Positions 25,905 through 40,627 of a DNA stretch of 64,000 nt are shown one piece after another (the first letter of the stretch is position 1; each line of letters opens with the position of its first letter). This stretch comes from Verrucomicrobiota bacterium (lineage in GTDB: Bacteria; Verrucomicrobiota; Verrucomicrobiia; Opitutales; Opitutaceae), in assembly GCA_028293545.1 (NCBI GenBank), contig JAQGOP010000042.1:1-64000 (forward strand). Reading direction: 5' to 3'. The position numbers were made by a program, and so were the translations under genes. The notes under the pieces were generated by a model, which made no database searches, had not been told where the DNA came from, and saw only the letters and a list, made by a program, of their open reading frames with translations.

Positions 25905-26840
25905 ATGCCCGCAACCGTCGAAGCTCCTCCCATCCTGCCCTTTCGCGTCGAATTTGGACGCCCGGCGACGACGCCGGCGCAGCGGGTCGGCGGTTTGGAA
26001 CTGAGCATCCCGCTGCTTGCCGGCGACAGCCACGAGAGCCTGTTTTCCCCGGTCACCCCGATCCAGGGCCGTTCGGGAATCACCCTCTTTGAAACGGGTG
26101 ACCTCACCGTCGGCTACGTCACCGAGCCGGTCCTCGACGAACGGATGCTCCCGCAGCAAAGCCAGGCTCTCTACAGCCGCCTGCTCGTCGCCGCGCGCGG
26201 CCGCCACCTTTACCGGATTTGGAACTATGTGCCGCGGATCAATGCCGTGACCGGCAGCCAGGAAAATTACCGCGCGTTCTGCCAGGGTCGTTCCCTCGCC
26301 TTCGAGATGGAAGTCGGCGCAGGCTTTCCGCACGTCCTCCCGTCGGCGTCAGGGGTCGGCACCCACGACGGCTGCCTCACGCTGGTCTTTGTCGCCGGCA
26401 AGGCCATGCCCCGCCATTTCGAAAATCCCGAGCAGATGCCTGCCTACCTTTATCCGCCCGAGCACGGCCCGCGTTCGCCGAGTTTTTCGCGCGCGACGGT
26501 CGCCGCGCTGCCGGGGCGGCAGCTCACGTTTATTTCCGGCACCGCCGCGATCAAGGGTCACCTCACGGTCGCGCCCAACGAGCTCGACGCCCAGCTCGAC
26601 TGCACCCTCGATAATCTCCGGCTGATCTCGCGCGCCACGGGCCTCGGCGATGACCTCGGCGCCACGCGCAAACTCGAGCGCCACTTCAAGGTTTACCTGC
26701 GGCACCCCGAAGACCTGGCGGCCACGAAGGGCCGCTTGGAAAAATCCCTGCTTCGTCCGAACGATCGCGTAATTTATCTCCACTCCGATATCTGCCGCGC
26801 GGCGCTCAACGTCGAGATCGAGGCCTCGATCGTTTCGTAA
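25905..26840 (+). CDS. Chorismatase-family protein (FkbO/Hyg5/XanB2-like)
   Basis: A 311-residue RidA-fold-like protein matching the chorismatase family, which converts chorismate to 3-/4-hydroxybenzoate or dihydroxycyclohexadiene carboxylate. Family blocks are visible: YRIWNYVPRIN (103-113), ENYRAFCQGRS (120-130), ENPEQMPAYLYPPEHGPRSP (173-192) and FISGTAAIKGH (209-219). XanB2 of this family supplies hydroxybenzoate starter units for xanthomonadin. It is convergent with the 13-gene polyene operon, 94 bp from the acyl-AMP ligase stop. Oddly, where I expect E-T-L-x-N near the active site, it reads C-T-L-D-N (233-237). The 278 bp upstream hold no recognisable feature beyond its promoter region. 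Confidence 0.8.
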   Translation: MPATVEAPPILPFRVEFGRPATTPAQRVGGLELSIPLLAGDSHESLFSPVTPIQGRSGITLFETGDLTVGYVTEPVLDERMLPQQSQALYSRLLVAARGRHLYRIWNYVPRINAVTGSQENYRAFCQGRSLAFEMEVGAGFPHVLPSASGVGTHDGCLTLVFVAGKAMPRHFENPEQMPAYLYPPEHGPRSPSFSRATVAALPGRQLTFISGTAAIKGHLTVAPNELDAQLDCTLDNLRLISRATGLGDDLGATRKLERHFKVYLRHPEDLAATKGRLEKSLLRPNDRVIYLHSDICRAALNVEIEASIVS

Positions 26841-26934
26841 GCGAGCGCCGGCCTCCGCGGGCTCCGACCGGTGTTTCAATCACTACGTCGCAGGTTTGGA
26901 GTTTGACCGCAACGAGCCGGTCGAAGACGCAGCG

Positions 26935-28251
26935 CTACGCCACTAGAAAAGCGCGCAGCTTTCGGCGGTCCACCTTTCCCCGCGCCGTGAGCGGGAACTC
27001 GGGCAGCGTCACGAATTTCCGGGGGATCTTCCACGCCGCCAGCCGCTCGCGCAGCTCCGCGCGGTAATCGACCGATGTGCGTCGCGTGGCAATGACCGCG
27101 GCCAACGAATCCGCCCGCTGCGCATGCGGCTCGACAAATACGTCGTCGATGCCCGGAAGTTCGCGCAACGCCCGCTCCACTTCCGACGGATCGAGTCGCC
27201 GGCCACCGATCTTCAACATCCGGCCCGCGCGCCCCAGCAGCACGAGTTCCCCGCGTTCGTTTAATTCCCCGCGATCAGCCGGGCGAAATCGTCCGCGACC
27301 GCCCACCGCTGCGCTCTCGACCTCGAAGCGGCCGGCATTCCCAAACTTCAATTTGACCCCGGCCAGCGGGCGGCCCGCGCTCCGGCCCGAGAGCGCCGCC
27401 TCGCCCGTGCGATCATAGGTGATCCCGCCGGTTTCGCTCGATCCGTAGAAATTATGCACGCCCAAGCCGAACCGCTGGAAAATTGCCTGCGCCGTTTCAG
27501 GCGGCAGCGGCGCCCCGGCGGAAATCACGGTGCGCAAGCTGTCCAAACGATCGCGCTCGATGCCTGCCGCGGCCAGCCCGCGCAAAAGCGCCGGCACCGC
27601 CGGGAAAACGCTCGGGCGCCAGCGATGAATGATTTCGGCCAGCGCGTGCGGGAGAACACCGGCGCCCACGATGACCGCCGTACCCTGGAGCAGGAGCGGC
27701 ATGACCAGGTTGCCCAATCCGTAGGAGTGCCCGAATGGAATGCACCCGAGATTAACATCGGCGCCGCCGATCTTCATCGTTCGGCAAATCTGGCGGCCAT
27801 CCGCGATCATCTGCGCATCGGTAAACGGGAGCGCCTTCGGCGTCCCGGTCGAACCGGAGGTCACTTTCCAAAGCCGCGTGCCACCGGCCTTGGCTCGACG
27901 CCGCCGGGCGGTCACGATTGCCAGTTGCGATCCCGCCCACACGAACTGCGCGCCCGTCTTCTCCGCGACTGAACGTTGCGCATCGAACGGTTCACCGGGA
28001 TCGAGCGCCACCGCGATCGCATCAACCGCCAGCAGGCCGAGGAAGATCGCGAACCATTGCGCCCCGTTCGGCTCCGCAAAAACCACCGCTTGGTTCGCGG
28101 CGAGCTTGCCGTGCGCCGCGGCCCACTCGCGACTGAGCAAGTCGAGTTCGATCCGCGTCCACGACCGACCGGATACCGAATCGACCAACGCCGTCGCGTC
28201 CGGCTGCGCTTTGACCGTCTTCAACCACAATCCATGCAAGGTGGCCGGCAT
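26935..28251 (-). CDS. Acyl/aryl-AMP ligase of the aryl polyene locus
   Basis: A 438-residue member of the AMP-forming acyl-CoA/acyl-ACP synthetase superfamily. The P-loop is KVTSGSTGTPKAL, the A5-like motif is NFYGSSETGGITYD, GRAGRMLKIGGRRLDP follows, and the C-terminal LTARGKVDRRKL contains the catalytic Lys. It is shorter than typical ligases (about 500), as is common in aryl polyene clusters. It likely activates the hydroxybenzoate starter for loading onto an ACP. The start at 28251 lies 4 bp after the exporter stop; it is the last gene of the operon. Confidence 0.85.
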   Translation of the reverse strand: MPATLHGLWLKTVKAQPDATALVDSVSGRSWTRIELDLLSREWAAAHGKLAANQAVVFAEPNGAQWFAIFLGLLAVDAIAVALDPGEPFDAQRSVAEKTGAQFVWAGSQLAIVTARRRRAKAGGTRLWKVTSGSTGTPKALPFTDAQMIADGRQICRTMKIGGADVNLGCIPFGHSYGLGNLVMPLLLQGTAVIVGAGVLPHALAEIIHRWRPSVFPAVPALLRGLAAAGIERDRLDSLRTVISAGAPLPPETAQAIFQRFGLGVHNFYGSSETGGITYDRTGEAALSGRSAGRPLAGVKLKFGNAGRFEVESAAVGGRGRFRPADRGELNERGELVLLGRAGRMLKIGGRRLDPSEVERALRELPGIDDVFVEPHAQRADSLAAVIATRRTSVDYRAELRERLAAWKIPRKFVTLPEFPLTARGKVDRRKLRAFLVA

Positions 28252-28255
28252 GGGT

Positions 28256-30592
28256 TCAGCGCCGCCGGCGGGCCAGCGGTTCGAGTTCCACCGCCAAAAG
28301 CGCCGTCACGACGATCAGCGCCACCGTCATGCCCAGCGCGTGAATGACCGGGATCCGGCTGAAACCCAGCACGCCGAACGAAGCCGCGGTGCAGAGCGCC
28401 GACAACCGGATCGAAACCGGCGGCGCCGTGTGCGCCGTCGCATTGTCCGAGGAGAAAATCGCGTAATTGTGCGACAGGCACACGCCGAGGAATGCCCCGA
28501 GCAGATTGAACAGGTTCAGCGTTTGCCCCGCCAGGCCGAGCAAGCCAAACACGAAGAAACACGATCCCGCCGGGATGAGCGCAATCCGGATCCCGCGGCG
28601 CGGCGGGTAAATCGCGAACACGCTCGCGATGACCAATCCCAAACCAATCAGGCTCAGGCGGAGCGCCGACCAGCGGTAGCGCGTGAAGAGCCCGTTGAGC
28701 GACTCCAGCTGGCTGACTTCCACCGTGTGGAATTCCGCCGGCACCGGCGCACCCGCCGGTTGCTCCACGACCGTCAAAAACCAAAACGCCGGCCCGTGAA
28801 AATTCCCCAGCAGCGCGAGCGGCCCGGCCAGCATGCCTTCGAGCATTTTCGCCACGCCGGAGTATTCGCCCCCGGAGGGATGTGACCGAAGTTTTTCGAA
28901 GGCCGTGAAAAATGGGAGGAACGAATCGGCGACGAACCCATGGTTTTCCAACGCCGCGCGAAAATCATGGTCGAACGACCCCAACTCCCGAAGGCGCGCG
29001 GGCATCGCCTGCCAGTCCGATTCCGTCGGGAGCAGCAAGCCCAGGCTCGCGGTGGATCCCTTGGGATTCAGCTTCGCTTGGTAAGCCGTGAAATCCTCGA
29101 GATGCTCGCGCGCCTCGCCGACCGACTTTCCCTGGGTCAGGTAAATCGCGCCGTTCGAACCCTCGCCAAACAATGCGCGCACCGCGGCTTCGTTGGCCCG
29201 CAGGTCCGCGGAGGGAACATCGAGCTGGCGGATGTCATCGCGCCAATGGAGCAACCAGGGGCCGATCAACGCGACCAGCAGCGCCACGACAAACAAGCCG
29301 CGCAGGGCCTTTCGCACCGAAGGATGATTTCGTCCCGCATCGAGGCGGCCGAACTGACGGCCCTCGAGCATCGGCCGCTCCAGCTGCGCGAAGTACAGCA
29401 TCGCCGCGCCCAAGGCGCAGAGCAGTCCCGCGCCGACAAAAAGCCCGATCTGCCGAATCAGCGGCAGCTCGGAAAAAAGCAGGAGGGAAAACCCGATCAC
29501 CGTCGTCAGGCAGCTCGCCAGCAGCGGCTTCAACAGCCGCCGGAGCTTGTGCGCATAGGGCTCGTCGGGACGCTCCGAGGGCTGCATGTAAATATAAAAC
29601 CCGTAGTCGATCGCGACGCCGGCAAGCAACGAGCCGATGACGAACACCAGGATGTGCAGCCGCTCAAATACCAGCGTCGAAAGGGTCCACGCGCCCAGCA
29701 GCGACAGCCCGATGACAGGCACGAGGTGCAGGATCTTATAAATCCGCCGGACAAAAATGCAGCTGACCCCGAGCACCGCCACCAGCGACGCGAGGTTGAG
29801 CAGACGTAATTCCGACTCGATGCGGGCCCGGCTCGCGGCGGCGAACCGGTTGATCCCGGTCCAACGCACGTGAACCCCGGGAAAGGCCGCGCGGACCGTC
29901 GCGAAGGCGGCGTCGACTGCGGCAAAAACCGGCCCCTGCCCTTCCTCGGACAAAGGCGAAACCGTGATCCGCGCCCACACGAGGGCGTTTCCGCCCGCCG
30001 TTGCGCCCGGGGCCGTCAAGCCCTGCGATCGCAAGGCGAGGCCGGGCACGAGCAGCAAGGGATCGCGCTCCGCCAAACCCTGCATCGCCGCCGCTTCGGG
30101 ACGCGAGAGAAACGCTTCCAGTTCCGCGGCGCTCCGCTCGGCCAGCCACGCGGGAAATTTTTCACGCGCCTGCCCGGTCGCCGCGAATTCGCGCTCATGT
30201 TTTCCCAGCCACGAAGGCAGCAACAGCTCAAAGCGATGTTCGTAGATCTGCCGGCCCAGCGCATCCTGCGCCGCCGTGTCGCCCATCACCACGGCTTCGG
30301 CAAACGCGGGCGATTTCCTCAGCTCCTCCACGAGGCGCTTCGCCGCCGCCGCGGGTGGAACGTTCGGTGCCGAAGGATCATCCAACGCGAAGAGCATGAC
30401 CTTCGCCTGGACGTCGTTCGCAAATCCGCGGATCAGCGCCAGCTCCGGCGCCTGCTCGCCCGCGGGAATCAAATCGAGGACGTTCGTCGAAATTTTCTGC
30501 CGGAAATCCAATCGCCCGAGCCAGATCGCGCAGCCCGCGGCAAACGCGAGCAATCCCACGCGGGCAAGTATTTTTTGGCGGCGGGGCTCCAC
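28256..30592 (-). CDS. MMPL/RND-type exporter
   Basis: A 778-residue membrane protein with the two-fold MMPL/RND layout: an N-terminal helix, a large periplasmic domain (about residues 40-240), a block of TM helices (about 250-390 with GVAIDYGFYIYM), a second periplasmic domain and a second TM block with GAFLGVCLSHNYAIF. Such exporters occur in aryl polyene clusters and are thought to move the lipid-linked pigment across the inner membrane, working with LolA-like carriers. It starts 11 bp after the LolA-like gene stop and ends 4 bp before the ligase. Confidence 0.87.
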   Translation of the reverse strand: MEPRRQKILARVGLLAFAAGCAIWLGRLDFRQKISTNVLDLIPAGEQAPELALIRGFANDVQAKVMLFALDDPSAPNVPPAAAAKRLVEELRKSPAFAEAVVMGDTAAQDALGRQIYEHRFELLLPSWLGKHEREFAATGQAREKFPAWLAERSAAELEAFLSRPEAAAMQGLAERDPLLLVPGLALRSQGLTAPGATAGGNALVWARITVSPLSEEGQGPVFAAVDAAFATVRAAFPGVHVRWTGINRFAAASRARIESELRLLNLASLVAVLGVSCIFVRRIYKILHLVPVIGLSLLGAWTLSTLVFERLHILVFVIGSLLAGVAIDYGFYIYMQPSERPDEPYAHKLRRLLKPLLASCLTTVIGFSLLLFSELPLIRQIGLFVGAGLLCALGAAMLYFAQLERPMLEGRQFGRLDAGRNHPSVRKALRGLFVVALLVALIGPWLLHWRDDIRQLDVPSADLRANEAAVRALFGEGSNGAIYLTQGKSVGEAREHLEDFTAYQAKLNPKGSTASLGLLLPTESDWQAMPARLRELGSFDHDFRAALENHGFVADSFLPFFTAFEKLRSHPSGGEYSGVAKMLEGMLAGPLALLGNFHGPAFWFLTVVEQPAGAPVPAEFHTVEVSQLESLNGLFTRYRWSALRLSLIGLGLVIASVFAIYPPRRGIRIALIPAGSCFFVFGLLGLAGQTLNLFNLLGAFLGVCLSHNYAIFSSDNATAHTAPPVSIRLSALCTAASFGVLGFSRIPVIHALGMTVALIVVTALLAVELEPLARRRR

Positions 30593-30603
30593 AAAAAATC
30601 GGC

Positions 30604-31257
30604 TCAGCGGAAGAATCGCTCCAGCACATCGCCGGGGAAAATCACATTCTCCCGCGTCCCGGTGATCGTGATCTCGATCCGCTGCGTGGGACTTTTGACC
30701 ATCTCGATCCGGTCAAGCCGGCCGTTTTGGCCGCTGACCGCGAGTACGCCGACAAACTCCGAGAGCGTCGGCTCGAGCGGGACAAACGCCAGGGTCCACG
30801 CCGCGCCGTCGCGACGCCCATGCACGGCAAACGATTTTTCCAGCGCCGGAAGGTCAAAGCGCAGCACGCTCACCAATGCCGAGGTGATCGCCTGCGCGCG
30901 GCTGTCCGCGGGAGCCGCCCGTTCGCGGCCTTCGTCGTCGCGCATCAGCAGGCCCCGGGCGTCCACGATCAGGATGCGATGTTCGGGCTCGAGATAACGC
31001 AGGCTCAAACCGCGAGCCGGCACGATCCGGATTTCTCCTTTCAGGACGACCGGCGTCTTCCGGAATGGAAAATAGCGCCGCTCCTCGAATTGCGATTGCC
31101 GCGCCCGGTTTGGCGCCAGCTGTGCAAAGAGGTCGGCCCAAGCCGGATCGTGCGCCGGGTCTTTCAGCAAATACTCCGGTCCCGTGGGCAAGTCCTGCGC
31201 CCGGGCACACCCCAGCGTGGCCAGGAAGAGCAATAGAACCCGGGTAAAAACGCGCAT
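30604..31257 (-). CDS. LolA-like outer-membrane lipoprotein carrier homologue
   Basis: A 217-residue exported protein. From the ATG at 31257 it has a signal peptide (MRVFTRVLLLFLATLGCARA). The mature part looks LolA-fold: QSQFEERRYFPFRKTPVVLK near residue 55 is the typical start of an unclosed beta-barrel, with GEIRIVPARGLSLRY and LDRIEMVKSPTQRI as later strands. In aryl polyene clusters LolA-like proteins are believed to shuttle the product through the periplasm. A palindromic repeat (31322-31416) separates it from the glycosyltransferase gene, breaking the otherwise tight operon spacing. Confidence 0.8.
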   Translation of the reverse strand: MRVFTRVLLLFLATLGCARAQDLPTGPEYLLKDPAHDPAWADLFAQLAPNRARQSQFEERRYFPFRKTPVVLKGEIRIVPARGLSLRYLEPEHRILIVDARGLLMRDDEGRERAAPADSRAQAITSALVSVLRFDLPALEKSFAVHGRRDGAAWTLAFVPLEPTLSEFVGVLAVSGQNGRLDRIEMVKSPTQRIEITITGTRENVIFPGDVLERFFR

Positions 31258-31321
31258 GTTCAGCACAAAGAAGGCAGGAAATCGGCAATGTTCCATTCCC
31301 GAGTTGCGTTGGCTTCACGCG

Positions 31322-31416
31322 CGGTGGAGCGCGTTGTCCCTAACGCGCTGAGCGGCTCGGCCCGCAATTAAACGTCGACGGAGCCGAAAGCGCGTTAGGG
31401 ACAACGCGCTCCACCG
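31322..31416. repeat. 95-bp palindromic repeat, copy A
   Basis: Perfect 28-bp inverted arms (31322-31349 and 31389-31416) enclose a 39-bp middle with a further CGGCTC/GAGCCG pairing. It is homologous to copy B at 49801-49893: both contain GTTGTCCC-type arms and an AAACGTC centre. The right arm encodes the last six residues (GGARCP) and TAA stop of the minus-strand glycosyltransferase. The hairpin could also act as an attenuator or terminator inside the operon. No transposase is nearby. Confidence 0.85.
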
Positions 31417-32174
31417 GCTGCTGCGCGCCGCGCGCGCAAAACCGGCAGCCATCGCCACAGCAGCAATTGGCTCAGCAGGCGCGTATGCAGCCAGACCAGC
31501 TTCAGGTTGTCGCGCAGGTAACGGAAGTGCGACACTCCGCCTTCGCTCGGGGCGAGATATCGACAAGGTGCGGGCAGGTTCAACGTCGGCACTCCCGCCC
31601 ACACCAGGCGCACCGCAATCTCGGGATCGAAATCGAATCCCCGCGCGCGTCGCGTCGAGCGGAGCGCACGTCGGAGCGGCTCCGCCGGATAGACCCGAAA
31701 GCCAAAAAGCGGATCGTCGATCCCGTTTCCCATGATTTCTAAATGCGCCAGGCCCACGCTGATCTTCCGCCCATGCAATCGTTCCAATGGCACCTCGGGC
31801 CCGAATACGGGCCGACCCAGCACGAGGGCGGCAGGATACGCCAGCGATGACGCCATGAATGAAGGAATGTGCCCGGCGGGATGCTGGCCGTCGGAGTCCA
31901 TCGTCAAGACATGCGTGAACCCCGCCGCCAGCGCCGCCTCGACCCCCGTCGCAACCGCGGCGCCCTTGCCACCATTGGTTTCACGGCGGATCACGCGAAC
32001 GCGCGGATCGCGTGCCGCGAGCGCTTCCACCGGAGCCGCACTGTCGTCGGTGCTGCCGTCAATCACCACCCACACCGGGCTCCATTGCGCCAGTGCCTCG
32101 TCGACCGTCGACGCAAGGCGCGCGCCCGTGTTGTAGCTCGGGATCAGCACCAGGTGCGTGGCGGAGGAAGTCAT
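31395..32174 (-). CDS. Family 2 glycosyltransferase
   Basis: A 259-residue GT-A-fold enzyme. LIPSYNTGARLASTV starts the nucleotide-sugar fold, VIDGSTDDS and TMDSDGQHPAG carry the Asp motifs, and NGIDDPLFGFRVYP is a later family block. GT2-like enzymes accompany acyltransferases in aryl polyene loci and probably build the lipid/sugar head group. The start ATG at 32174 overlaps the acyltransferase stop by ATGA; larger in-frame extensions are rejected. The C-terminal tail (AAGGARCP) is encoded by a palindromic repeat arm, so its last residues differ from any ancestral end. Confidence 0.88.
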   Translation of the reverse strand: MTSSATHLVLIPSYNTGARLASTVDEALAQWSPVWVVIDGSTDDSAAPVEALAARDPRVRVIRRETNGGKGAAVATGVEAALAAGFTHVLTMDSDGQHPAGHIPSFMASSLAYPAALVLGRPVFGPEVPLERLHGRKISVGLAHLEIMGNGIDDPLFGFRVYPAEPLRRALRSTRRARGFDFDPEIAVRLVWAGVPTLNLPAPCRYLAPSEGGVSHFRYLRDNLKLVWLHTRLLSQLLLWRWLPVLRARRAAAGGARCP

Positions 32175-32923
32175 CGCTTGATGATCTCGGTCCGCAGCCT
32201 CTGCTCCGCACGCGCGGCAAACTCCGTCGCCGTCTCCCCGATGGCCGGCGCCAATTCGCCCACGAGTTCGACTTCCACCTGCGCGGGAAAGTTCGGCGGA
32301 CGCCACCACGGCCACCATTTGGGAACGAGATCCGCCGGCGCGCGGATCACCACCAGCCTGACCGGTACGCCCGCGCGCGCAGCGATCACGGCGAAACCGG
32401 GCTTCAGGGGATTCAACACGGTGCCGGTGACCGTTCGCGTGCCTTCCGGGAAAATCAGGAGCGACCGGCCGTCCTTGATCCGATCCGCGACCGCGCGGAC
32501 CAAATCGATGCCGGTGTTTCCCGAAACATATCCACCCATCAACGCCGCCGGGCCCAGCGCCGGGTTTCTCATCACGGCCGGCTTGAAAATGCAGATCGCG
32601 TCGGGCAACCGTGCGAGCACGAAGGTCGCGTCCAGCAGTCCCGGATGGTTTGCGACGTAGACCGCCGCGCCTTCGAGCGCATCGGGCGTGAAACCGGTCC
32701 AGGAAACATAGATCAACCGCGTCGCATGGAGCCACGCGCACCAGGCGCCGAAGAGTCGCTGGATGGTCGCACGCACCGCCGGCCCGCGACGCTCGCGATG
32801 CGGAAACAGCAGCAGCACCGCGCAGACGGCGTTCAGCGCGACCCCGACGGCGCCAAACACAAACCAGGATATCCAGTTGGCGACGTGGTGATAGGCGCTC
32901 AGAGACATGCGTCGCAGCATCAT
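32171..32923 (-). CDS. PlsC-type 1-acyl-sn-glycerol-3-phosphate acyltransferase family protein
   Basis: A 250-residue membrane-associated acyltransferase. An N-terminal hydrophobic helix (about residues 18-42) precedes the catalytic ANHPGLLDAT motif (NHx4D) near residue 93 and the downstream FPEGTR motif near residue 160. In aryl polyene loci, PlsC-like enzymes attach the pigment chain to a lipid or sugar-lipid. It overlaps the neighbouring genes on both sides by 4 bp (ATGA), so it is tightly coupled. Confidence 0.9.
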   Translation of the reverse strand: MMLRRMSLSAYHHVANWISWFVFGAVGVALNAVCAVLLLFPHRERRGPAVRATIQRLFGAWCAWLHATRLIYVSWTGFTPDALEGAAVYVANHPGLLDATFVLARLPDAICIFKPAVMRNPALGPAALMGGYVSGNTGIDLVRAVADRIKDGRSLLIFPEGTRTVTGTVLNPLKPGFAVIAARAGVPVRLVVIRAPADLVPKWWPWWRPPNFPAQVEVELVGELAPAIGETATEFAARAEQRLRTEIIKR

Positions 32924-33804
32924 GGCGCGGGCGGATTGAGCGGCGTGAAATTAAACCAAAGCGACGGGTCCTCGCGCAGGAATCCCTCGATCCGCGAAAG
33001 GAACGCCTGGAAATGCGCTTTCGCGCGCAACAGGTTCTCCGCCTTGCTGCCCGCATCCGGCACGAACATCGGTGAACTGTGGACGGTGGAGTGGCCGGGT
33101 GCAGCGGGCAGTCCCACGCTCAGGACCACCGGTCGCCGGAAGATCAAGGCGAGGTGGTAGATCGTGAACGGAAAGACCCGGCGCGCGCCGAGGAAGTCGA
33201 AGACCTCGGTTTTCGCCGAGAACTCGAGCCGGTCGCATTTCAGCGCCACGCTGCCCCCGCTGTTCACGGCCTCCTTGAGGGCGAACAGGAGGTTCCCGGC
33301 TTCGTTGACCCAGATAAACGTGACCCAGGCGCCAAATTTTTTTCCCAGGATTTCGGTGTCATGGGAATTCCCCACGCGCTGCCGCACCATGAACACCCGG
33401 CGATGCTCCTGCGGGCCGAGCAGGAATCCGGTCAAGTCCGAGTGCCCGAGGTGAAACGTACCCAGCAAGGCGGGCTCGCCGGTCGCGAGCAGGCGATGGA
33501 AGCCCTCCGCATCGGGCGCCAAATCGCCGCGGTGCGGCTGGCCATTCGCGACCCGCAGCCGCAGCATCAGGAATTCCGTGAAGGCGAAAAAATGCCGCAC
33601 CACGTCCCGGTGCTTCGGCTCGCGACCCAGGGCCGCACGCAGGTAAGCGCGTGAATTCGCGCGCTGGCCCGGCATGTTGAGCACGGCGATCCACGTGCCG
33701 CACCAGCGCAGCGGTCGAAAGATGAATTCCGGGAGCACCCGGTCGCAGCCGCGGAGAAATTGAAAGCCCCAGCTCGGGCCCGGATTGCGCGCAGCCCTCG
33801 TCAT
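32920..33804 (-). CDS. Lysophospholipid acyltransferase (LpxL/HtrB-like) family protein
   Basis: A 294-residue acyltransferase resembling lipid A acyltransferases. GTFHLGHSDLTGFLL (about residues 105-119) contains an Hx4D motif. No export signal is seen apart from a hydrophobic N-terminal part. A second acyltransferase next to the PlsC-like one is usual in aryl polyene clusters. The ATG at 33804 shares one base with the stop of the chain-length-factor gene; longer in-frame extensions run through that gene and are rejected. Confidence 0.83.
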   Translation of the reverse strand: MTRAARNPGPSWGFQFLRGCDRVLPEFIFRPLRWCGTWIAVLNMPGQRANSRAYLRAALGREPKHRDVVRHFFAFTEFLMLRLRVANGQPHRGDLAPDAEGFHRLLATGEPALLGTFHLGHSDLTGFLLGPQEHRRVFMVRQRVGNSHDTEILGKKFGAWVTFIWVNEAGNLLFALKEAVNSGGSVALKCDRLEFSAKTEVFDFLGARRVFPFTIYHLALIFRRPVVLSVGLPAAPGHSTVHSSPMFVPDAGSKAENLLRAKAHFQAFLSRIEGFLREDPSLWFNFTPLNPPAP

Positions 33805-34457
33805 CACAGCCACGCGAGGTTTAACCGCATTCCCGGCGCCGCGACGAGATCGAGCGGCTGCCGCGCCGCGAGCGCCGCGAAAAACGTTTCCAACGGGAGC
33901 GCGGCCGGTTGGTCCGCGGAGCGCGCCAGCGCGATTTTGCCGATCGCCTCTCCGGGGCCTGACGTCAGGGCCAGCGCGAACGCAAAGCTCCGCGCGCTCG
34001 CGTAGCCCTGCGCGAGGAGCCAGGTCCCGCGCTCCTCTCCGCCGCACACCAGCACGCGCGGCGCCGGCGACAGCATCGCGGCCTGCATCGCCTGCGCGAC
34101 GAGGTGCGCGCGACCTGTCAGCGGAAAAAATTCCCGCACCGGGTGCTGCCGCCCGATCATGGCCTGCTGCACCGCGCTCGGATGGATCGAGGTCTGGAAC
34201 ATCGTCGGGCTCGCGGTGGGAAAACTCTCCAGGTACGCCTCGAGGGCGCGACTTTCCGCGTACGACGAGGCGTACACCACCGCGTCGTCGCTTCGCGGCG
34301 CGAGTTCGTCCAGCGCGGCGCCGACGAGCATCCCCAACTGCGTCATGCGCCGCGTGGCGCCGCGGGGAAATTTATCCTTCAGGCGTTCGCGCGTCGCCGC
34401 CGGTTCCTCGGCGCCGGGATCGGCCACGCTGATCGCCTGGATGAATCGCTCAAGCAT
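33804..34457 (-). CDS. Ketosynthase-like protein without catalytic Cys (chain-length-factor type)
   Basis: A 217-residue protein resembling the N-terminal half of beta-ketoacyl synthases (Ketoacyl-synt_2 type of aryl polyene clusters). VVYASSYAESRALEAYLESF and PTMFQTSIHPSAVQQAM occupy the usual KS positions, but the nucleophilic Cys and the two His of KS enzymes are absent. It likely partners an active KS as a chain-length factor. The ATG at 34457 overlaps the KS stop by 8 bp. Confidence 0.72.
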   Translation of the reverse strand: MLERFIQAISVADPGAEEPAATRERLKDKFPRGATRRMTQLGMLVGAALDELAPRSDDAVVYASSYAESRALEAYLESFPTASPTMFQTSIHPSAVQQAMIGRQHPVREFFPLTGRAHLVAQAMQAAMLSPAPRVLVCGGEERGTWLLAQGYASARSFAFALALTSGPGEAIGKIALARSADQPAALPLETFFAALAARQPLDLVAAPGMRLNLAWL

Positions 34458-35556
34458 GGGAAAGAAGGAACGCGGCATGGGCGCCGCCGAATGCATTGCT
34501 GGCGCACAGGACTGCGTCGAACCCCGCGGTGGAAAAGGGCTCGAGCGCAACCTGGGGCACAAAACTCGGCGCGGCGCCCCCCACCGTCCCCGGGGCGTTT
34601 CCCGCCCGAATGGCCGCGGCCGCGATCGCCAGTTCCACCAAGCCGCAGCTGCCGAGGGTATGGCCGATGCTGCCTTTCCAGGAGACAAGCGGCGCAGCGG
34701 GAAATACCGCGCCCAACGCCGCGCTTTCCAGCTTTCCCGCCTCGAGGGTGCCGGTGCCGTGGCCCTTGAGCCAGAGTTTCCGGCCCGCCGCCGCTTCACG
34801 CGTCGGTGCCAGGCAGGCCGCAAAGCCCGTGCCGTCGGCGCGATTCGCGGTGAAGTGATGCATTTCGTTGAAAACGCTCTGGCCCTCGATGACGAAATCG
34901 CCGCGATCACGGCTCAGCACGGCAAAGGCCGCGCCGTCGCCCAACCCGATCGAGCCCGCCGGCCGATCCGCGTACGGCGCGGGAAACCCCGCGTTGAGGA
35001 TTTTCAACGCGTGAAAGCCACCGGTCACAAACGGGCTGATAAAATCGAAGGAAAAAACCAGCGCGCGATCGGCGACGCGGTGTTCCAGCGTACGCGAGGC
35101 GAGCAGCAGCCCGAGGTGCGCCGACACACAGGCATGCGAAACGGTGGTGACGTTCGGCCCCCACCCCAGCTGGCCCGCCAGCCAGTCGACGCACCCCGCC
35201 GGCGTGCCAAACGGCAGGTGCGCCGCGTCGCCATGGCGCCGATACGCGTAAAGGCTGCCGACGCCAAAATTGCTGCTCGTGACAAACACCGGGCGGGCGG
35301 CGGAGCCCCAAGCATCCGCGGGGATCTGCGTGAGCATCGTCTTTAGAACGCGCAGCCAGTTGGGTGGCGCCGTTTCGTCGAGCGAGCGCCCGGCCACCAA
35401 CGCAAGCGGCACCGGCTCGCCTCCGTCGGCGCCCAGCACCGGGCGCGATTGCAGTGCGCGTTCTCCTCGCCGCAAGGCGCCCAGCGTCGTGTCGGCGTCG
35501 CCGAGGCCGGTGACGCATCCCGCGGCTTCGAGGCGGACGGCGGCAAGGGAGGGCAT
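34450..35556 (-). CDS. Beta-ketoacyl-ACP synthase (aryl polyene type)
   Basis: A 368-residue ketosynthase, shorter than FabF. The Cys-His-His triad is visible: Cys143 in SHACVSAHLGL, His266 in KGHGTGTLEAGK and His299 in GSIGHTLGS. It likely performs decarboxylative condensation during polyene chain growth or starter condensation. The start ATG at 35556 lies 26 bp after the ACP stop; the C-terminal end overlaps the chain-length-factor gene. Confidence 0.88.
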   Translation of the reverse strand: MPSLAAVRLEAAGCVTGLGDADTTLGALRRGERALQSRPVLGADGGEPVPLALVAGRSLDETAPPNWLRVLKTMLTQIPADAWGSAARPVFVTSSNFGVGSLYAYRRHGDAAHLPFGTPAGCVDWLAGQLGWGPNVTTVSHACVSAHLGLLLASRTLEHRVADRALVFSFDFISPFVTGGFHALKILNAGFPAPYADRPAGSIGLGDGAAFAVLSRDRGDFVIEGQSVFNEMHHFTANRADGTGFAACLAPTREAAAGRKLWLKGHGTGTLEAGKLESAALGAVFPAAPLVSWKGSIGHTLGSCGLVELAIAAAAIRAGNAPGTVGGAAPSFVPQVALEPFSTAGFDAVLCASNAFGGAHAAFLLSHA

Positions 35557-35582
35557 GGCGCGGGAAATGGGTCCGCGGCGGC

Positions 35583-35858
35583 TCAGGCGGGCAGGCGGGC
35601 GGGATCGGCGCGCGCGCGAATAAACTCCGCGAGGTGCGAGATGCTGCCGAGCGCCTGGCGCGATTCCTCGCTGCTCGAGATCTTGATGCCGTATTGTTTT
35701 TCCAGCGTGACGACGAGTTCGAGGGCGTCGATGGAATCGAGGTTCAAGCCCGAACCAATGAGCGGCTCGTCGTCAGCCAGGTCAGCCGCGGCCACACCTT
35801 CGAGCTTGAGGGTGTTTACGATCAATTCCTTCAGGTCTCTTTTGAGCGAGTCAGGCAT
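35583..35858 (-). CDS. Acyl carrier protein
   Basis: A 91-residue ACP. The phosphopantetheine Ser is in GSGLNLDSIDALELV, and the helical framework (LIVNTLKLEG, TLEKQYGIKI) is normal. It carries the growing chain in the polyene locus. The ATG at 35858 is preferred over the track start at 35933, whose extra 25 residues look unrelated. A 147-bp gap (35859-36005) to the FabF-like gene upstream shows no clear signal. Confidence 0.9.
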   Translation of the reverse strand: MPDSLKRDLKELIVNTLKLEGVAAADLADDEPLIGSGLNLDSIDALELVVTLEKQYGIKISSSEESRQALGSISHLAEFIRARADPARLPA

Positions 35859-36005
35859 GCGTAAGGCGAATGTGGATGGAGTCGCGGGGACCCGGCAAGC
35901 ACCGAGAACCAGCGAGGACAGGAGGCGGGGCAAAACCGGCGGGCCCTTTACCGACCGCGAAATTTCCCACCGGTGCGGGCCAATCTTGCGTCCCTCGTGC
36001 GACCT

Positions 36006-37274
36006 TCAAACCTTCGCCGCCCGCAGCACGTGACAGACGTTGCTGCCCCCGAAACCGCTGCTGTTGTTCAGCACGCAGCCGGGCGAAGCGTCGCGCGTGG
36101 CCACCGGGAGATTCAGGTCAGCGCACGCCTCGTCGGGAGCCGTGAGGTTGGCGTTGCCCGGGATAAAACCATCGCGAATCGCGAGGGAGCAAAACGCCGC
36201 TTCCATCACGCCGGACATGGACAGGGGATGGCCCGTCAGGCCTTTGGTGCTACTCACCGGGGGACGGGCCCCCGCGGCCGAAAAAACGGCCCGGAGCGCC
36301 AGCGCCTCGGAACGGTCGCCGGCGGGCGTGGAGGTCGCGTGGGCATTGACGTAGTCGATATCAGCCGGGGTCACGCCGGCATCGCCCAGCGCCCGCCGAA
36401 TCGCTTCGGCCAAGCCGGCGCCTTCCGGGTGCGAAACCGCGACATTGAATCCGTCGGCCGCCTGGCCCCAGCCGGCGAACTCCGCGTAAATCGGGGCGCC
36501 ACGCCGGCGGGCGGTGTCGGCGTCCTCAAGAATCAGGCACACCGCCCCACCCGCGCCGACGAATCCATCGCGCTGCCGGTCGAACGGCCGCGACGCCGTC
36601 AACGGATCTGGATTGGTGGAGAGCGCGCGCATTGCCGCGAATGGCAGGATGGTCTCGGCATTCACCTCCTCCGCGCCGACCACGAGCATCCGCGCCTGGC
36701 GTCCCAGCCGGATGTCGTCGAGCGCGCAGCCCAGCGCATGGCTCGACGACGCGCACGCCGCGACAAATCCACCCACCGCGCCGCGAATGCCGTAATGCGC
36801 CGCGAGGTTGAAATTCAGGGTGCCGGCGATGGAAGCCACGACGCCCATCGGGTTGCCGCGCTCGCCGCGGACCGCGTGCATGTGCGCGAGATGATGGTGC
36901 AGCATGAACGCCGAGCCGGCGGACGCGCAGTAAAGCCCGGTCGCGCCGTCGCGGAGATCCGCCGGCTTGAGCCCGGCGTCGGCCAGCGCCTGCTCCACCG
37001 CGCACAACGCATAAAGCCCGTGCGCGGAAACCCCGCGCAAGGTTTCGCGGGGCAGGTCGTAATCCGGGGGATAGCGCCAGTCGCGCCAGCTCGGGGAATC
37101 GACGCTGAAGCCTTTCACCGTGCCGGCGACCTTGGTGGGGAGCGACGGGTTGTGGAGAAACTCGACGCGTTCCAATCCCGGTTTGAGTTCGCGCAGGTGG
37201 CGCGTGACCGCCGCGCGGTCGTTGCCGATGCTGGTGATGAAGCCGAGGCCGGTGACGAGCGCGGAGCGGCTCAT
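36006..37274 (-). CDS. FabF-like beta-ketoacyl-ACP synthase
   Basis: A 422-residue KAS-II-type condensing enzyme. Cys174 lies in AACASSSHA, His312 in NAHATSTPAGD and His349 in STKGLTGHPL, so the triad is intact. NNSSGFGGSNVCHVL is the C-terminal signature. In aryl polyene clusters a FabF-like enzyme performs chain elongation with a chain-length-factor-type partner. The start ATG at 37274 overlaps the upstream ACP stop by ATGA. Confidence 0.93.
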   Translation of the reverse strand: MSRSALVTGLGFITSIGNDRAAVTRHLRELKPGLERVEFLHNPSLPTKVAGTVKGFSVDSPSWRDWRYPPDYDLPRETLRGVSAHGLYALCAVEQALADAGLKPADLRDGATGLYCASAGSAFMLHHHLAHMHAVRGERGNPMGVVASIAGTLNFNLAAHYGIRGAVGGFVAACASSSHALGCALDDIRLGRQARMLVVGAEEVNAETILPFAAMRALSTNPDPLTASRPFDRQRDGFVGAGGAVCLILEDADTARRRGAPIYAEFAGWGQAADGFNVAVSHPEGAGLAEAIRRALGDAGVTPADIDYVNAHATSTPAGDRSEALALRAVFSAAGARPPVSSTKGLTGHPLSMSGVMEAAFCSLAIRDGFIPGNANLTAPDEACADLNLPVATRDASPGCVLNNSSGFGGSNVCHVLRAAKV

Positions 37275-37675
37275 GCGCGCGGAACGGAGTTATCCACGCT
37301 GGCTGTGAGTTTCTGCCGCACGAAGGAACGCAGGTCGCCCACGGTCTTTACGCGGAGGATCTCCTCGTTGGTGATGCGGACCTGGAAGAGATCCTCGAGG
37401 AAAAACACCATCTCGGTGATCGCGACGGAATCGAAACCGAGGTCGTTGACCAATCCCAGCGCGTCGGCGGGCGTGCCGGCGGGACGAAGCTTTTTGTCGG
37501 GCAGGTGATCCAGCATGATCGCAAGCACGACGAGGTCGGCATCCGCCGGAACCTTGGTCGTCAGGAATCTCTCGTAGGCCGCACACACCTCCGTGGGAAA
37601 ATGCTGGCCAAGGGTCCGGGCGGCGTGGTTCGGCGCGGCAACGGGGATCGCGGGTGAAGTGGGCTGCGAGGGCAT
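37271..37675 (-). CDS. Acyl carrier protein with N-terminal extension
   Basis: A 134-residue protein whose last ~90 residues are an ACP: DLGFDSVAITEMVFFLEDLF contains the phosphopantetheine Ser, followed by VRITNEEILRVKTVGDL. The first ~40 residues are a Pro/Ala-rich extension not seen in the other ACP of the locus. It lies 9 bp after the first flavoprotein gene and overlaps the FabF-like gene by 4 bp. Two ACPs per cluster are normal for aryl polyenes. Confidence 0.85.
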   Translation of the reverse strand: MPSQPTSPAIPVAAPNHAARTLGQHFPTEVCAAYERFLTTKVPADADLVVLAIMLDHLPDKKLRPAGTPADALGLVNDLGFDSVAITEMVFFLEDLFQVRITNEEILRVKTVGDLRSFVRQKLTASVDNSVPRA

Positions 37676-37684
37676 GAAGAATTC

Positions 37685-39241
37685 TTAGCTTGGTGCGTTG
37701 GCCGGCTTGGGCACAAGCACGGCCGGAGCGGGATTCGCGGCAAACCAGGTTCGCCAGCCTTCGCGCAACTCGAGGCCGAGCCAGAGGCAGAGCAGGCCCG
37801 CAATGCGCACCGGCAGGCGGCGATTGAACTCGTAGCTGATGAAGCCGAAGTAACCCAGGTGGTTGCGCCGGCCCCAGGTGCCGCGGCGATGGCGGCTCCG
37901 CGCGATCGCGACCAAGCGCCGATTGTACAGCTGCATCAATCGGAAAGGCCCGCGCGATTTCGGATGCGCGAATGGCGGCGTCTCCAGGATGCGGTTGCCG
38001 TGCTTGAACGGCTGCGTGACAATCCCGAGGTAATACAGGCCGAGATCGAGGCGGAACGCCAAGGTCATGAGCTCGAAGTCGCCCATGTAATAATATTTAT
38101 CGAGATAGAGCGCGCGGAACCAGCGATCGTAGCTCAGCACGAAATTCTCGTTGTGACGCGCCACGCGCGGAGCGACGGGTTTACCCCGGAAGCTGTCCGC
38201 AATGAGCGCCGATGCGGCGCTCGTCGAAAACGAAATCCAATCCATGCCCGGCGAATAAAAGGGGTCGATGAAACCCGCGGCATCGCCGACCAGCACCGCG
38301 CCGTCGGTCGCATACGTCGTGCTCGAGTAAGCGAGGTTTCGCCGGAAGTGCATGTCGCTTTCCTGGTACGAGGCGTTCGCCAGCAGTTCCTTCGCGACCG
38401 GGTGCAGCAGCAGGAAAGCCTTCAGCCGTTCGCCCAGGCTCGGCCCGGGCGGAAGCTCCATGATGCGCTGGTCGTAAACGACGCCGATGCTCACATCCCC
38501 GCCCTTGAGCGGAATGATCCAGGCCCACCAGCCGTATCCCGTCAGGTGATTCGTCGCCGTCGAACGCACGGCTTTCGCCCGATTCGCCCAGCCGGGATAT
38601 TTATCCGAAAGCGAGCGATCATCGAGTGAGCAGACGTTGGACCAGCGGCTCCAGCAGGTCGCGGTCGGATGCGCCGTGTTGGGTACCTGCCAGCCCTCCT
38701 GGCGGGCGAGCAGCGCGGCCACGCCCGAGGCGTCGACCACCCAGCGCGCCGTGGCCGCCTGCCGCGCGCCGGCGGCATCATCCCATTCCACGACCTGTGC
38801 GCCACCGGGCACGAGCGTGACTTTGCGCACCCGAACCAGGCGCTGCAGGACCGCGCCATCCTTCACCGCGTTCGCGAGCACATGCTCGTCCAGGACCGCG
38901 CGATCAACCTGGTATCCCGGCAGGCGGACATTGTAGCGCGGGCCGGTTTCGCTGCACTCGTTGAGCGCGCGCGCCGAGGGGTTCGTGAACCAGAAACGCA
39001 TGCCCTGTTTCGGCAGGTGTTTCTCCAGGAGATGCTCCGTCAAACCGAGAACGCGCCCCAGGAAATACGCGCTGATCTCGACGGTGGATTCCCCCACGCG
39101 GCGCTTGAGGTGCTCCGTGCGTTCGAGGATGAGGATCCGCAATTTCGGATTCCGGCGCAGCAACAAGCAGGTGGTAGCGGAGCCCGAAAGCGCACCGCCC
39201 ACGACGATTACATCCCAGTCTGTTCGCAGCGTTTCTTCCAT
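37685..39241 (-). CDS. FAD-dependent oxidoreductase, flavin halogenase-like (WxWxIP)
   Basis: A 518-residue FAD protein. VIVVGGALSGSATT is the Rossmann dinucleotide motif, RRVGESTVEIS the next block, GYGWWAWIIPL contains WxWxIP, and VLVGDAAGFIDPFYSPG is the second FAD motif. WxWxIP is the signature of flavin-dependent halogenases, though related monooxygenases/dehydrogenases in the same superfamily also carry it. In a xanthomonadin-like pathway it could halogenate or hydroxylate the aryl head group. The ATG at 39241 is preferred over 39319 because the Rossmann motif then begins near residue 11. Confidence 0.8.
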   Translation of the reverse strand: MEETLRTDWDVIVVGGALSGSATTCLLLRRNPKLRILILERTEHLKRRVGESTVEISAYFLGRVLGLTEHLLEKHLPKQGMRFWFTNPSARALNECSETGPRYNVRLPGYQVDRAVLDEHVLANAVKDGAVLQRLVRVRKVTLVPGGAQVVEWDDAAGARQAATARWVVDASGVAALLARQEGWQVPNTAHPTATCWSRWSNVCSLDDRSLSDKYPGWANRAKAVRSTATNHLTGYGWWAWIIPLKGGDVSIGVVYDQRIMELPPGPSLGERLKAFLLLHPVAKELLANASYQESDMHFRRNLAYSSTTYATDGAVLVGDAAGFIDPFYSPGMDWISFSTSAASALIADSFRGKPVAPRVARHNENFVLSYDRWFRALYLDKYYYMGDFELMTLAFRLDLGLYYLGIVTQPFKHGNRILETPPFAHPKSRGPFRLMQLYNRRLVAIARSRHRRGTWGRRNHLGYFGFISYEFNRRLPVRIAGLLCLWLGLELREGWRTWFAANPAPAVLVPKPANAPS

Positions 39242-39340
39242 CGGGATGGCGGAATCAAGGTTTTCGCCCCCCGTCTTCGCAATGGCAAAGATACCGGTAG
39301 AAATGCTGAATTGTGGCACAGGCGGTTTGCCTCCGCGGAG

Positions 39341-40627
39341 TCAAACGACCGGCCGGGGTTTCGGCCTGGCGGCGTAATCCAACGGAGGCACCGTTCGAAA
39401 CCGACGCTGCAGGCGGCACACCAGGAGGAAGATTTTGAAACGCCACCACAGCGGCCAAGTCAGCTTCGCGTGGCCCGCGACGATCGACGTCAGGCCGGGC
39501 GCCAAATTCCACGGCACCTGCTCGCACATGAAGACCGCGAAGCTGCGGTTGTCGTAAAACATCTCGATCAACCGGCAGAATACCTCCGCGTGCCGTTTGA
39601 TCCCGCGCGTGTAATCGCGTCGCTCCCGCTCGCTCAGGCCGCGATCCTTCGCGTCCGCCCGGACGACCAGGTTCACCGCGCGCTGCGCCGACCACAGCGA
39701 CATATACACGCCCGAGGAAAAAATCGGGTCGAAGAATCCCGCGGCGTCCCCGACCAGCAGCAAACGTTCGCGCGCGAGTTCGCGCCGGAAATAAGTGTAA
39801 TCGCTCGTGACGTGAAACGACATGGTCGCCTCCGACCCGGCCATGAGCTCGCGCAGCCGCGATGAACTTTCGACCGCCTGGCGAAACAACTCCTCTGGCT
39901 CAACCTTTGCGCGCCGCATGGCCTCGATCGTGGTCACCAGCCCGACGGACGTGCGTTCCTCGTCGATCGGGATGATCCAAAACCAGCCATCCTCCAGCCG
40001 GACCACGATCGTATGCCCGGCGCGACGACCGGATGGCCGCGCGACGTGGCGGAAATGGCTGTAGACCGCCATCTTCCTCTCGAGCCGCGGTGGATCCAGC
40101 GCGCGCTTTTGATCGGTGACAAAAAAATTATCCCGTCCGCTCGCGTCGAGCACCCAGCGCGCCGTGACCCTTTCGCATCCATCGGCGGTTTCGATTTCGA
40201 CATGGTTCACCGTGCCATCGGTTTCCACGGATTTGACGGTCGCGGGCGTCCGAATGTCCGCGCCCAGTTCGAGCGCGTGATTGAGCAGGATGGCGTCGAA
40301 CTTTGCGCGCTCCACCTGGAAGGTGCTCTCGAGCCCGGGCACGAGGCTGTTGCGAAAATCGATCTCCTTTTCCTCGGGAGAATTGGCGAGGTAGAACATT
40401 GCGCCGTATTTCGGAATAAATCCCGCGCCCTCGATCTTCGGCCACACCCCGATGTCGCGCAGGATCGCATTGCTGGTCGGCAGCATCGATTCGCCGATCC
40501 GAAACCGGGGGAACGCGCATTTTTCGACGACGAGCGTGCGGTAGTTATTCTTGCGCGCATACGCCGCCGCACAACTGCCGCCGGGACCGCCCCCAATCAC
40601 GAGCACATCATAATCAGCTTTCGTCAT
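39341..40627 (-). CDS. Second FAD-dependent oxidoreductase, flavin halogenase-like (WxWxIP)
   Basis: A 428-residue relative of the previous flavoprotein. VLVIGGGPGGSCAAAYA near the N-terminus, FRIGESMLP, EDGWFWIIPID (WxWxIP) and LLLVGDAAGFFDPIFSSG are all present. It is the first gene of the polyene operon; the ATG at 40627 is preferred over 40756, whose leader is not FAD-like. The 99-bp gap to the next gene is the widest among the first three genes. Halogenation, epoxidation or ring hydroxylation are all possible; the presence of two such enzymes is the notable point. Confidence 0.8.
   Translation of the reverse strand: MTKADYDVLVIGGGPGGSCAAAYARKNNYRTLVVEKCAFPRFRIGESMLPTSNAILRDIGVWPKIEGAGFIPKYGAMFYLANSPEEKEIDFRNSLVPGLESTFQVERAKFDAILLNHALELGADIRTPATVKSVETDGTVNHVEIETADGCERVTARWVLDASGRDNFFVTDQKRALDPPRLERKMAVYSHFRHVARPSGRRAGHTIVVRLEDGWFWIIPIDEERTSVGLVTTIEAMRRAKVEPEELFRQAVESSSRLRELMAGSEATMSFHVTSDYTYFRRELARERLLLVGDAAGFFDPIFSSGVYMSLWSAQRAVNLVVRADAKDRGLSERERRDYTRGIKRHAEVFCRLIEMFYDNRSFAVFMCEQVPWNLAPGLTSIVAGHAKLTWPLWWRFKIFLLVCRLQRRFRTVPPLDYAARPKPRPVV

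Follow-up and report, generated by a model that had tools for sequence, protein, structure and literature searches.

Gene content of the locus

A 64,000-nucleotide stretch of a Verrucomicrobiota genome (assembly GCA_028293545.1, contig JAQGOP010000042.1, positions 1 to 64,000; hereafter the window) carries 13 contiguous minus-strand genes at 26935–40627 and a convergent plus-strand chorismatase gene at 25905–26840, as delimited by open reading frame (ORF) maps and family scans; together they encode machinery that is, judged from sequence, of the aryl polyene (APE) type in priming, condensation, attachment and export. In order of transcription, the operon encodes two halogenase-like flavoproteins (flavA, flavB), acyl carrier protein 1 (ACP1), ketosynthase 1 (KS1), ACP2, KS2, a half-size KS partner, two acyltransferases (AT1, AT2), a family 2 glycosyltransferase (GT2), a LolA-like protein, an MMPL exporter and an AMP-ligase. 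Several operon genes overlap by 1–8 bp, and intergenic gaps in the locus reach about 150 bp at most. None of the 14 reading frames is interrupted in the window; their ends overlap, and active-site motifs look intact by eye. A first-pass annotation of this DNA had listed the same operon and chorismatase, and its gene list was correct; its assignment to Verrucomicrobiota was likewise borne out by relatives named Opitutaceae.

For comparison, 288 genomes of the phylum, including the source genome, were sampled, and a wider scan covered 84,980 species genomes, from which the best 80 of 370 relatives were used. L- and G-numbers below are handles of fetched loci and sampled genomes, respectively, and L053 is contig C20 of the source genome.

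Aryl-polyene-type machinery

KS2 (34450–35556) is an ApeO/ArcK-type ketosynthase with Cys and His motifs read by eye, whose best PDB match is 7f28_B and whose best NCBIfam model, under its cut-off, is PRK09185. The adjacent KS partner (33804–34457) is a half-size chain-length factor of the ApeC, Lysobacter ORF16 and ArcJ type: a profile of its family matched 6qsp_B (E 2.5e-5) and 7f28_A (E 8.8e-5) in the PDB, with nothing else below E 0.9, and it was aligned with E. coli ApeC by hhalign (E 1.2e-5). 6QSP is the Xenorhabdus ApeO–ApeC complex (PMC8358021), and 7f28 would, going by the match, be the Acinetobacter complex described in the same paper. The earlier description of the partner as Cys-less applies to the active site but not to the whole protein, which has a Cys elsewhere.

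For pairwise comparison, the E. coli KE47 ape cluster (L167) was used, which is unannotated and whose genes were named by their order and Table 1 of PMC8253772; the E. coli CFT073 stretch that was fetched contained no ape cluster. Nine of the 13 operon proteins matched the KE47 cluster at E ≤ 1e-4, namely the eight expected counterparts, plus KS1, which matched ApeR (30% identity). The closest was ACP2 (35583–35858, Pfam 34 bits), an ApeE-type carrier protein (46% identity) with PRK09184 as its best NCBIfam model (65.5 bits, cut-off 70). GT2 (31395–32174, Pfam 81 bits) resembles the N-terminal half of ApeJ (36%, 154 bits), and AT1 (32920–33804), a lipid A-type acyltransferase-like protein, the C-terminal half (23%, E 7e-8), ApeJ thus being split in two in the window. 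AT2 (32171–32923), a 1-acylglycerol-phosphate acyltransferase-like protein (Pfam Acyltransferase, 47.2 bits), is 34% identical to ApeD, the KS partner 31% identical to ApeC over 98 residues, and KS2 27% identical to ApeO. The MMPL/RND exporter (28256–30592, Pfam 45 bits) matches ApeM (23%, 90 bits), and the acyl-AMP ligase (26935–28251, Pfam AMP-binding, 147 bits), which is ApeH/ArcT-like, matches ApeH (23%, E 8e-10), its family being too broad to place it inside or outside the APE type. The LolA-like lipid carrier (30604–31257) corresponds to ApeL by family, with no pairwise match; 20 of 25 members of its protein family match LolA_3 at E ≤ 0.001, and its only NCBIfam match is flexirubin LolA2 (21.3 bits, far under the cut-off of 125). 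For three window proteins taken alone the family calls are weak and under the Pfam cut-offs, namely the KS partner (Ketoacyl-synt_2, 21.7 bits; cut-off 25), AT1 (Lip_A_acyltrans, 15.6 bits; cut-off 22.3) and the LolA-like protein (21.4 bits; cut-off 23).

Against E. coli apeA–R, counterparts of ApeC, D, E, H, J, M and O were therefore matched pairwise and ApeL by family only, and no match from the window locus was found to ApeB, G, I, K, N, P or Q; the E. coli cluster further differs in being primed by 4-hydroxybenzoate (4-HBA) and in having no chorismatase of its own. A flexirubin-type cluster of Bacteroidota (Persicobacter plasmid, L168) shares the KS pairs, ACP, LolA, glycosyltransferase, acyltransferase, MMPL-like and AMP-ligase genes, and differs in encoding an aromatic ammonia-lyase, FabG, a methyltransferase and ApeI/ApeP-like dehydratases, with no chorismatase among its listed genes. 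The window locus thus has the ApeO/ApeC-type KS pair, an AMP-ligase with a dedicated ACP, and acyltransferase, glycosyltransferase, LolA and MMPL genes, which upholds the aryl-polyene hallmarks claimed in the first-pass annotation. It has no ketoreductase (KR), no ApeI or ApeP dehydratase (DH) and no ApeR-type second KS within the cluster, and on these counts is a variant rather than a canonical APE or xanthomonadin cluster.

Chorismatase and starter unit

The chorismatase (25905–26840, plus strand) belongs to the FkbO/Hyg5 family (Pfam 67.1 bits, cut-off 27), and its nearest solved relatives are FkbO (4bps) and 5ag3/5a3k, which we take to be Hyg5. Published work on Nat-hyg5 gives Gly164, Gly231 and Cys318 as residues of the CH-II class and Glu325 as catalytic (PMC7170507), and by alignment these correspond to Hyg5 positions 173, 240, 327 and 334. 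The window protein holds all four equivalents (Gly173, Gly240, Cys327 and Glu334 in Hyg5 numbering), so that the chorismatase named in the first-pass annotation does carry the residues of 3-hydroxybenzoate (3-HBA) formers. When 19 chorismatases were aligned (the window protein and 18 relatives, three of them from genomes without the cluster), Gly240, Cys327 and Glu334 were kept in 19 of 19. FkbO has Ala at both the 240 and the 327 positions, which makes an FkbO-type product unlikely; at position 173 it has Gly, so this position does not separate CH-I from CH-II, and the starter-unit argument rests on Gly240, Cys327 and Glu334. On these residues, 3-HBA is the best prediction for the product, with some 4-HBA, as made by XanB2, a possible addition. 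XanB2 (CH-III), like the other Xanthomonas proteins, was compared through published descriptions rather than by sequence.

The Gly/Ala alternation at Hyg5 position 173 is a possible product-ratio switch inside one conserved family. Chorismatases of about 40% identity were also seen in cyanobacteria near an AMP-ligase-like gene, without other pigment genes (L232–L235, L240, L242 and L245).

Ketoreduction and dehydration

Neither a ketoreductase nor a dehydratase gene was found in the window locus, gaps included, using KR queries (E. coli ApeQ and Persicobacter FabG) and custom ApeI and ApeP profiles. The KR queries matched a short-chain dehydrogenase/reductase (SDR) gene at 1388–2098 of the window, outside the cluster, as well as genes beside the L180 chorismatase, in L204 and in the cyanobacterial L235, none of them inside any cluster. 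KR was missing also from clusters that keep both dehydratases, so a ketoreductase supplied in trans looks like the older state.

The dehydratase profiles were trained on five Opitutales ApeP and three ApeI sequences together with the E. coli ones; training sequences match themselves, and the untrained finds were L152 and L168 for both profiles and L049 and L066 for ApeI. The Pfam ApeP model alone was too weak, having missed the ApeP of G119 and G172, and the Pfam ApeI model, with none of 17 cluster genomes above its cut-off, was likewise weak, some of these genomes having an ApeI that the custom profile detects. Among the fetched loci, 57 contain KS2 and its partner, of which 49 were called Opitutaceae-type (KS2 at least 59% identical to that of the window; not all are named Opitutaceae, and two duplicate genomes also fetched by handle) and eight other (at most 55%). 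Both dehydratases were found in five of the eight other-family loci (L049, L057, L058, L066 and L246) and neither in any of the 49, the remaining three others being L063 (G134), L150 (G158, a fragmented genome) and L247. Since other Opitutales families keep ApeI and ApeP, the older form of the pathway would have dehydrated its chain. Where dehydratase genes occur, one site is the ligase–exporter junction and the other the AT2–GT2 junction. Of the 49 loci, 34 show both junctions intact and tight, with <330 bp separating the matches; each of the others has one junction truncated, rearranged or taken up by another gene. In the window, AT2 and GT2 overlap by 4 bp at the junction where other families carry ApeI. 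The absence of the dehydratases is firmest for the 34 tight loci and the window. Cultured relatives with the cluster include both kinds: Opitutaceae bacterium EW11 has no dehydratase genes in the stretch covered, and Pelagicoccus sp. SDUM812002 has them.

One reading of this loss is that the pathway is no longer a polyene pathway, with KS2 and its partner making either a short aryl beta-keto chain that stays unreduced or an aromatic polyketide that cyclises; the flavoproteins would modify this product, and the acyltransferases and exporter would deliver it to the envelope. The contrast between 49 of 49 and five of eight loci speaks for it, as do the two halogenase/monooxygenase-like flavoproteins and the lack of an extra FabA-type dehydratase in cluster-bearing genomes. 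We nevertheless judge it unlikely, because KR is also missing where both dehydratases are kept, so that a borrowed reductive step looks normal in this lineage, because no cyclase or aromatase family was found among the 13 genes in the family scans, and because KS2 and its partner are still of the polyene ApeO/ApeC type.

For an aryl-polyene-type pathway with reduction and dehydration in trans, enzymes of fatty acid synthesis are at hand in the source genome (84% complete), where FabZ, FabI and FabH are encoded consecutively on contig C35. An additional FabA/FabZ gene accompanying the cluster was rejected as a candidate, the counts of FabA-family genes not being raised in cluster-bearing genomes: within the family, 10 of 11 cluster-bearing members have three and the source draft genome has two, and among 14 cluster-less members the number is three in 10, four in two and two in two.

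In L057 (1445–4162; 5490–6614) and L058 (15521–16561; 11481–12452), both outside Opitutaceae, the MMPL exporter shares a reading frame with ApeP, and the acyltransferase AT2 with ApeI, which are unusual fusions. L119 (G116, of the same family as the source genome) carries an ApeP gene (84 bits, cut-off 27) and an ApeR-like KS without a KS partner, and is perhaps a separately acquired classical APE cluster.

Origin of KS1 and ACP1

KS1 (36006–37274) is a FabF-like ketosynthase, and ACP1 (37271–37675, Pfam PP-binding, 24.4 bits) is an N-terminally extended carrier protein. A maximum-likelihood KS tree was calculated from 64 rows, some of them long, in which E. coli ApeO and two source-genome KS were unsurely placed. 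In it, 27 KS1 proteins linked to the chorismatase or the cluster form one clade (100/99), whose sister (97/90) comprises 26 of 28 KS encoded beside ACP–FabA genes, the two from other families branching below both; these 55 KS form a clade with 100/100 support. E. coli ApeR lies apart, grouped with the KS of G116 and G286, which are encoded close to ApeP-like genes, and the assignment of KS1 as ApeR was rejected on this placement. KS1 is 57% identical to the KS on C20, against 30% to ApeR, and the ACP half of the ACP–FabA fusion matches ACP1 at 33% identity over 100 residues. By phylogeny, KS1 is a derivative of the Opitutales lipid-operon lineage, and ACP1 probably shares that origin. The expectation that the best homologues would fall within APE families was accordingly right for KS2, the KS partner, ACP2 and GT2, and wrong for KS1 and, on weaker evidence, ACP1.

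The related operon on C20 (L053, 2741–11413, minus strand) encodes an ACP–FabA fusion, a FabF-like KS and an SDR, followed by a protein resembling monogalactosyldiacylglycerol synthase and two GT4 glycosyltransferases; its product is probably an unusual glycolipid. The fusion is present in 23 of 25 sampled genomes of the family. Its ACP–FabA/KS/SDR part was considered as a dedicated second half of the cluster, comparable to the unlinked arc loci of Azoarcus, and this was not supported by the distribution: 15 of 17 cluster genomes have the fusion, or its unfused halves side by side, but so do 12 of the 14 genomes of this family that lack the cluster. As a tentative and rather improbable elaboration, the cluster may be a mosaic, with an ApeO/ApeC half from APE clusters and a KS1/ACP1 half duplicated from the lipid operon; its own dehydratases would have been lost through reliance on the FabA domain and reductase that the sister operon supplies in trans, two loci thus building one chain. 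G172 has KS1 and both dehydratases without the fusion.

Flavoproteins and comparison with xanthomonadin clusters

Both flavoproteins encoded first in the operon have the WxWxIP motif, as the first-pass annotation had claimed in calling them halogenase-like, and match Trp_halogenase (cut-off 21). flavA (39341–40627, 92.6 bits) has ChlB4, PltA, 3e1t and similar halogenases as its best solved relatives, several of which presumably act on carrier-bound aromatic substrates. flavB (37685–39241, 59.3 bits), with a halogenase-type Lys and WWAWIIP, is more divergent (79.9 bits to 3e1t). The Lys, GWxWxIP and DPxFSSG are the same in all 12 flavA sequences compared; of 13 flavB sequences, the Lys is found in all 12 that cover it (one N-terminus is incomplete), WxWxIP in 12, and SSG is changed to SPG in 12. 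NCBIfam models of the non-halogenating relatives QhpG and LodB match too, the family being shared with monooxygenases. Counting the window and dropping cross-matches of <30% identity, flavA was found in nine and flavB in eight of 17 cluster genomes, within the fetched stretches; present in only about half of the fetched clusters, the flavoproteins look accessory. Halogenation by flavA and flavB is plausible but conjectural.

The locus could also be a true xanthomonadin cluster acquired from Proteobacteria, making a brominated aryl octaene ester halogenated by flavA and flavB. A chorismatase, a KS with a half-size partner, LolA, an exporter, an acyltransferase and a halogenase gene do co-occur in the Xanthomonas-type and Azoarcus clusters as described (PMC3691225, PMC3949708), and the window and Azoarcus also have the Na+/H+ antiporter in common (arcG; PMC3949708). 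With Lysobacter and xanthomonadin clusters, the window locus shares a chorismatase, here predicted to make 3-HBA, the KS and half-size partner, ACP, acyltransferase, LolA-like carrier and exporters, and Xanthomonas clusters carry a halogenase gene where two halogenase-like genes are found here (PMC3691225). The described ‘yellow’ cluster of Lysobacter enzymogenes (xanB2, ORF16–17) encodes a KR and two DHs (PMC3691225), and a ketoreductase and dehydratase are listed for xanthomonadin (PMC3949708), whereas the window locus has none and adds a second KS/ACP pair of other origin. The arcuflavin (arc) genes of Azoarcus BH72 offer the ArcB chorismatase, the ArcT ligase, ArcK with ArcJ (which has an N-terminal KS domain), acyltransferases, a glycosyltransferase, LolA and an exporter, and differ in having the reductase arcH, the dehydratases arcI and arcS, two unlinked loci and dialkylresorcinol coupling, against one compact locus without reductase or dehydratases here (PMC3949708). 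Since a halogenase-annotated gene is described in Azoarcus as well (PMC3949708), such a gene alone is no proof of bromine. With KR and two DH genes missing and the flavoproteins patchy, this reading is very unlikely. The earlier label of xanthomonadin-like suits the machinery and, by its residues, the predicted starter enzyme, and not the reductive half, whose missing KR and two dehydratases it had overlooked.

Linkage and distribution

The chorismatase was detected at E ≤ 1e-10 in 24 of the 288 genomes and strongly (E ≤ 1e-40) in 19. The KS-partner profile matched 18, of which one weak match (G286, E 1.8e-8) was dropped, leaving 17. A strong chorismatase is present in 16 of these 17, the exception being G080, whose cluster lies on an 18.8 kb contig, and three genomes (G163, G066 and G217) have a strong chorismatase without the KS partner. 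The chorismatase lies at most 2 kb from a cluster gene in 15 of the 16 and 9 kb away in G143.

Among the best 80 relatives from the wider scan, 67 were set apart as Verrucomicrobiota-type by title or similarity, and because of kinship neither the counts in this set nor those above are independent. Cluster genes were found in the stretch for 61 of them, in 60 no more than 2.5 kb away, and the ligase is convergent with the chorismatase in 57 of the 59 that have a ligase. The other 13 (12 cyanobacteria and one gammaproteobacterium) showed no cluster, with an AMP-ligase-like gene nearby in seven. Recurrence of the gene set in dozens of species is more than chance. Among plasmid records, 11 contain a chorismatase, the two inspected lying outside pigment clusters, and 112 contain a KS2 match, the three inspected belonging to a flexirubin-type cluster, to an ape cluster of E. 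coli and, in Variovorax, to no cluster.

Conservation also bears on whether the cluster is decaying or silent, losing core functions and making nothing. The lost dehydratases and missing KR would fit, as would the flavoproteins and KS1/ACP1 that in several genomes lie apart from the rest or were not seen. The 14 open genes with overlapping ends and motifs intact by eye argue for function, and across Opitutaceae-type loci the cluster is kept at high identity between genera (KS1 65–85%, GT2 54–79%), making decay a far-fetched explanation.

antiSMASH ‘arylpolyene’ regions have already been reported in Opitutales or Verrucomicrobiota (PMC10927696, PMC8692599), and Congregicoccus parvus ASA1 is described with such a region and whitish-yellow colonies (PMC12193912). 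No report of the chorismatase link or of the missing reductive genes was met in a search limited to open-licence papers, of which a minority was opened.

Proposed pathway

Taken together, the locus probably encodes an Opitutaceae pathway of aryl-polyene type that is primed by 3-HBA, attached to the envelope, and served in trans for ketoreduction and dehydration. The chorismatase, with the residues described above, would convert chorismate to 3-HBA, which the AMP-ligase would activate and load onto ACP2, by analogy with ApeH and ArcT. KS2 and its short partner would condense malonyl units, with KS1 and ACP1, given their types, as a putative second elongation pair. Beta-keto reduction and dehydration would be carried out by trans enzymes, most simply the fatty acid synthesis enzymes FabG and FabZ, or else the lipid operon's reductase and FabA domain. 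flavA and flavB may oxidise or halogenate the ring, probably while it is carrier-bound. As in E. coli (ApeD, J, L and M), AT1, AT2 and GT2 would join the product to a lipid or glycolipid; the LolA-like protein and MMPL exporter would carry it to the outer membrane, where a yellow pigment protecting against light and oxidants would be expected.

Several observations weigh against this proposal. AT1, the KS partner, the MMPL exporter and the ligase match E. coli only weakly in pairwise comparison (23–31% identity). At Hyg5 position 173 (chorismatase position 150) the window protein shares Gly with G060 and G217, the other 16 of the 19 aligned sequences having Ala, which leaves the exact product (3-HBA alone or a 3-/4-HBA mix) less sure for the family than for the window. 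Beyond the absence of KR and DH genes itself, the Opitutaceae pathway, with both dehydratases lost, may have ceased to yield a polyene; deletion of the KR is described as abolishing pigment in Lysobacter (PMC3691225), as are most core-gene deletions in E. coli (PMC8253772). Finally, none of the strains shown to carry the cluster has a known product or colony colour.

By published account, aryl polyenes rank with the most widespread secondary metabolites of bacteria, and the described clusters used for comparison here each encode a reductase and dehydratases. A conserved lineage that lacks these genes and keeps priming, condensation, lipid attachment and export offers a natural setting in which to ask whether aryl-polyene assembly can run on fatty acid synthase enzymes. 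The proposal predicts a hydroxybenzoate-primed, possibly halogenated envelope pigment in Verrucomicrobiota, and an automated ‘arylpolyene’ label at this locus would hide the missing half of the chemistry.

Neighbouring genes and other features

The conserved neighbourhood extends to about 23693, beyond the limits set in the first-pass annotation. A Na+/H+ antiporter gene (24373–25626, minus strand; Pfam PF00999, 172 bits) is divergent from the chorismatase and is found at or near it in many relatives (70–87% identity). Next to it, a gene for a VTT-domain membrane protein (23693–24619, minus strand; Pfam PF09335, 42.9 bits), with its true start probably near 24379, is a conserved neighbour of the chorismatase, and one or both of these genes stand beside the chorismatase in many fetched relatives. 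VTT-type genes also adjoin ACP2 in L063 (above cut-off) and L066 (32.5 bits, cut-off 33.9), and L057 has a similar gene, recognised only by eye.

Immediately upstream of the operon, GC content falls to 54% at 40001–42000, against 60–68% in the rest of the window, and a plus-strand ORF within this patch (40985–41704, 239 aa) gave no Pfam match at E ≤ 0.01 and no relatives in the fetched loci.

In other pigment loci, B12-binding radical SAM genes, all five assigned by Pfam, lie between the ligase and the exporter (L188, L228 and L229) or beside the ligase (L207 and L224), with a gap of similar size in L238; methylation or other tailoring by the inserted enzymes is possible. A fusion of PAP2 and polysaccharide deacetylase lies between the chorismatase and the ligase in L179 and L183, with like-sized gaps in L176, L189, L222 and L225, and arcN of Azoarcus is annotated as a PS-deacetylase (PMC3949708).

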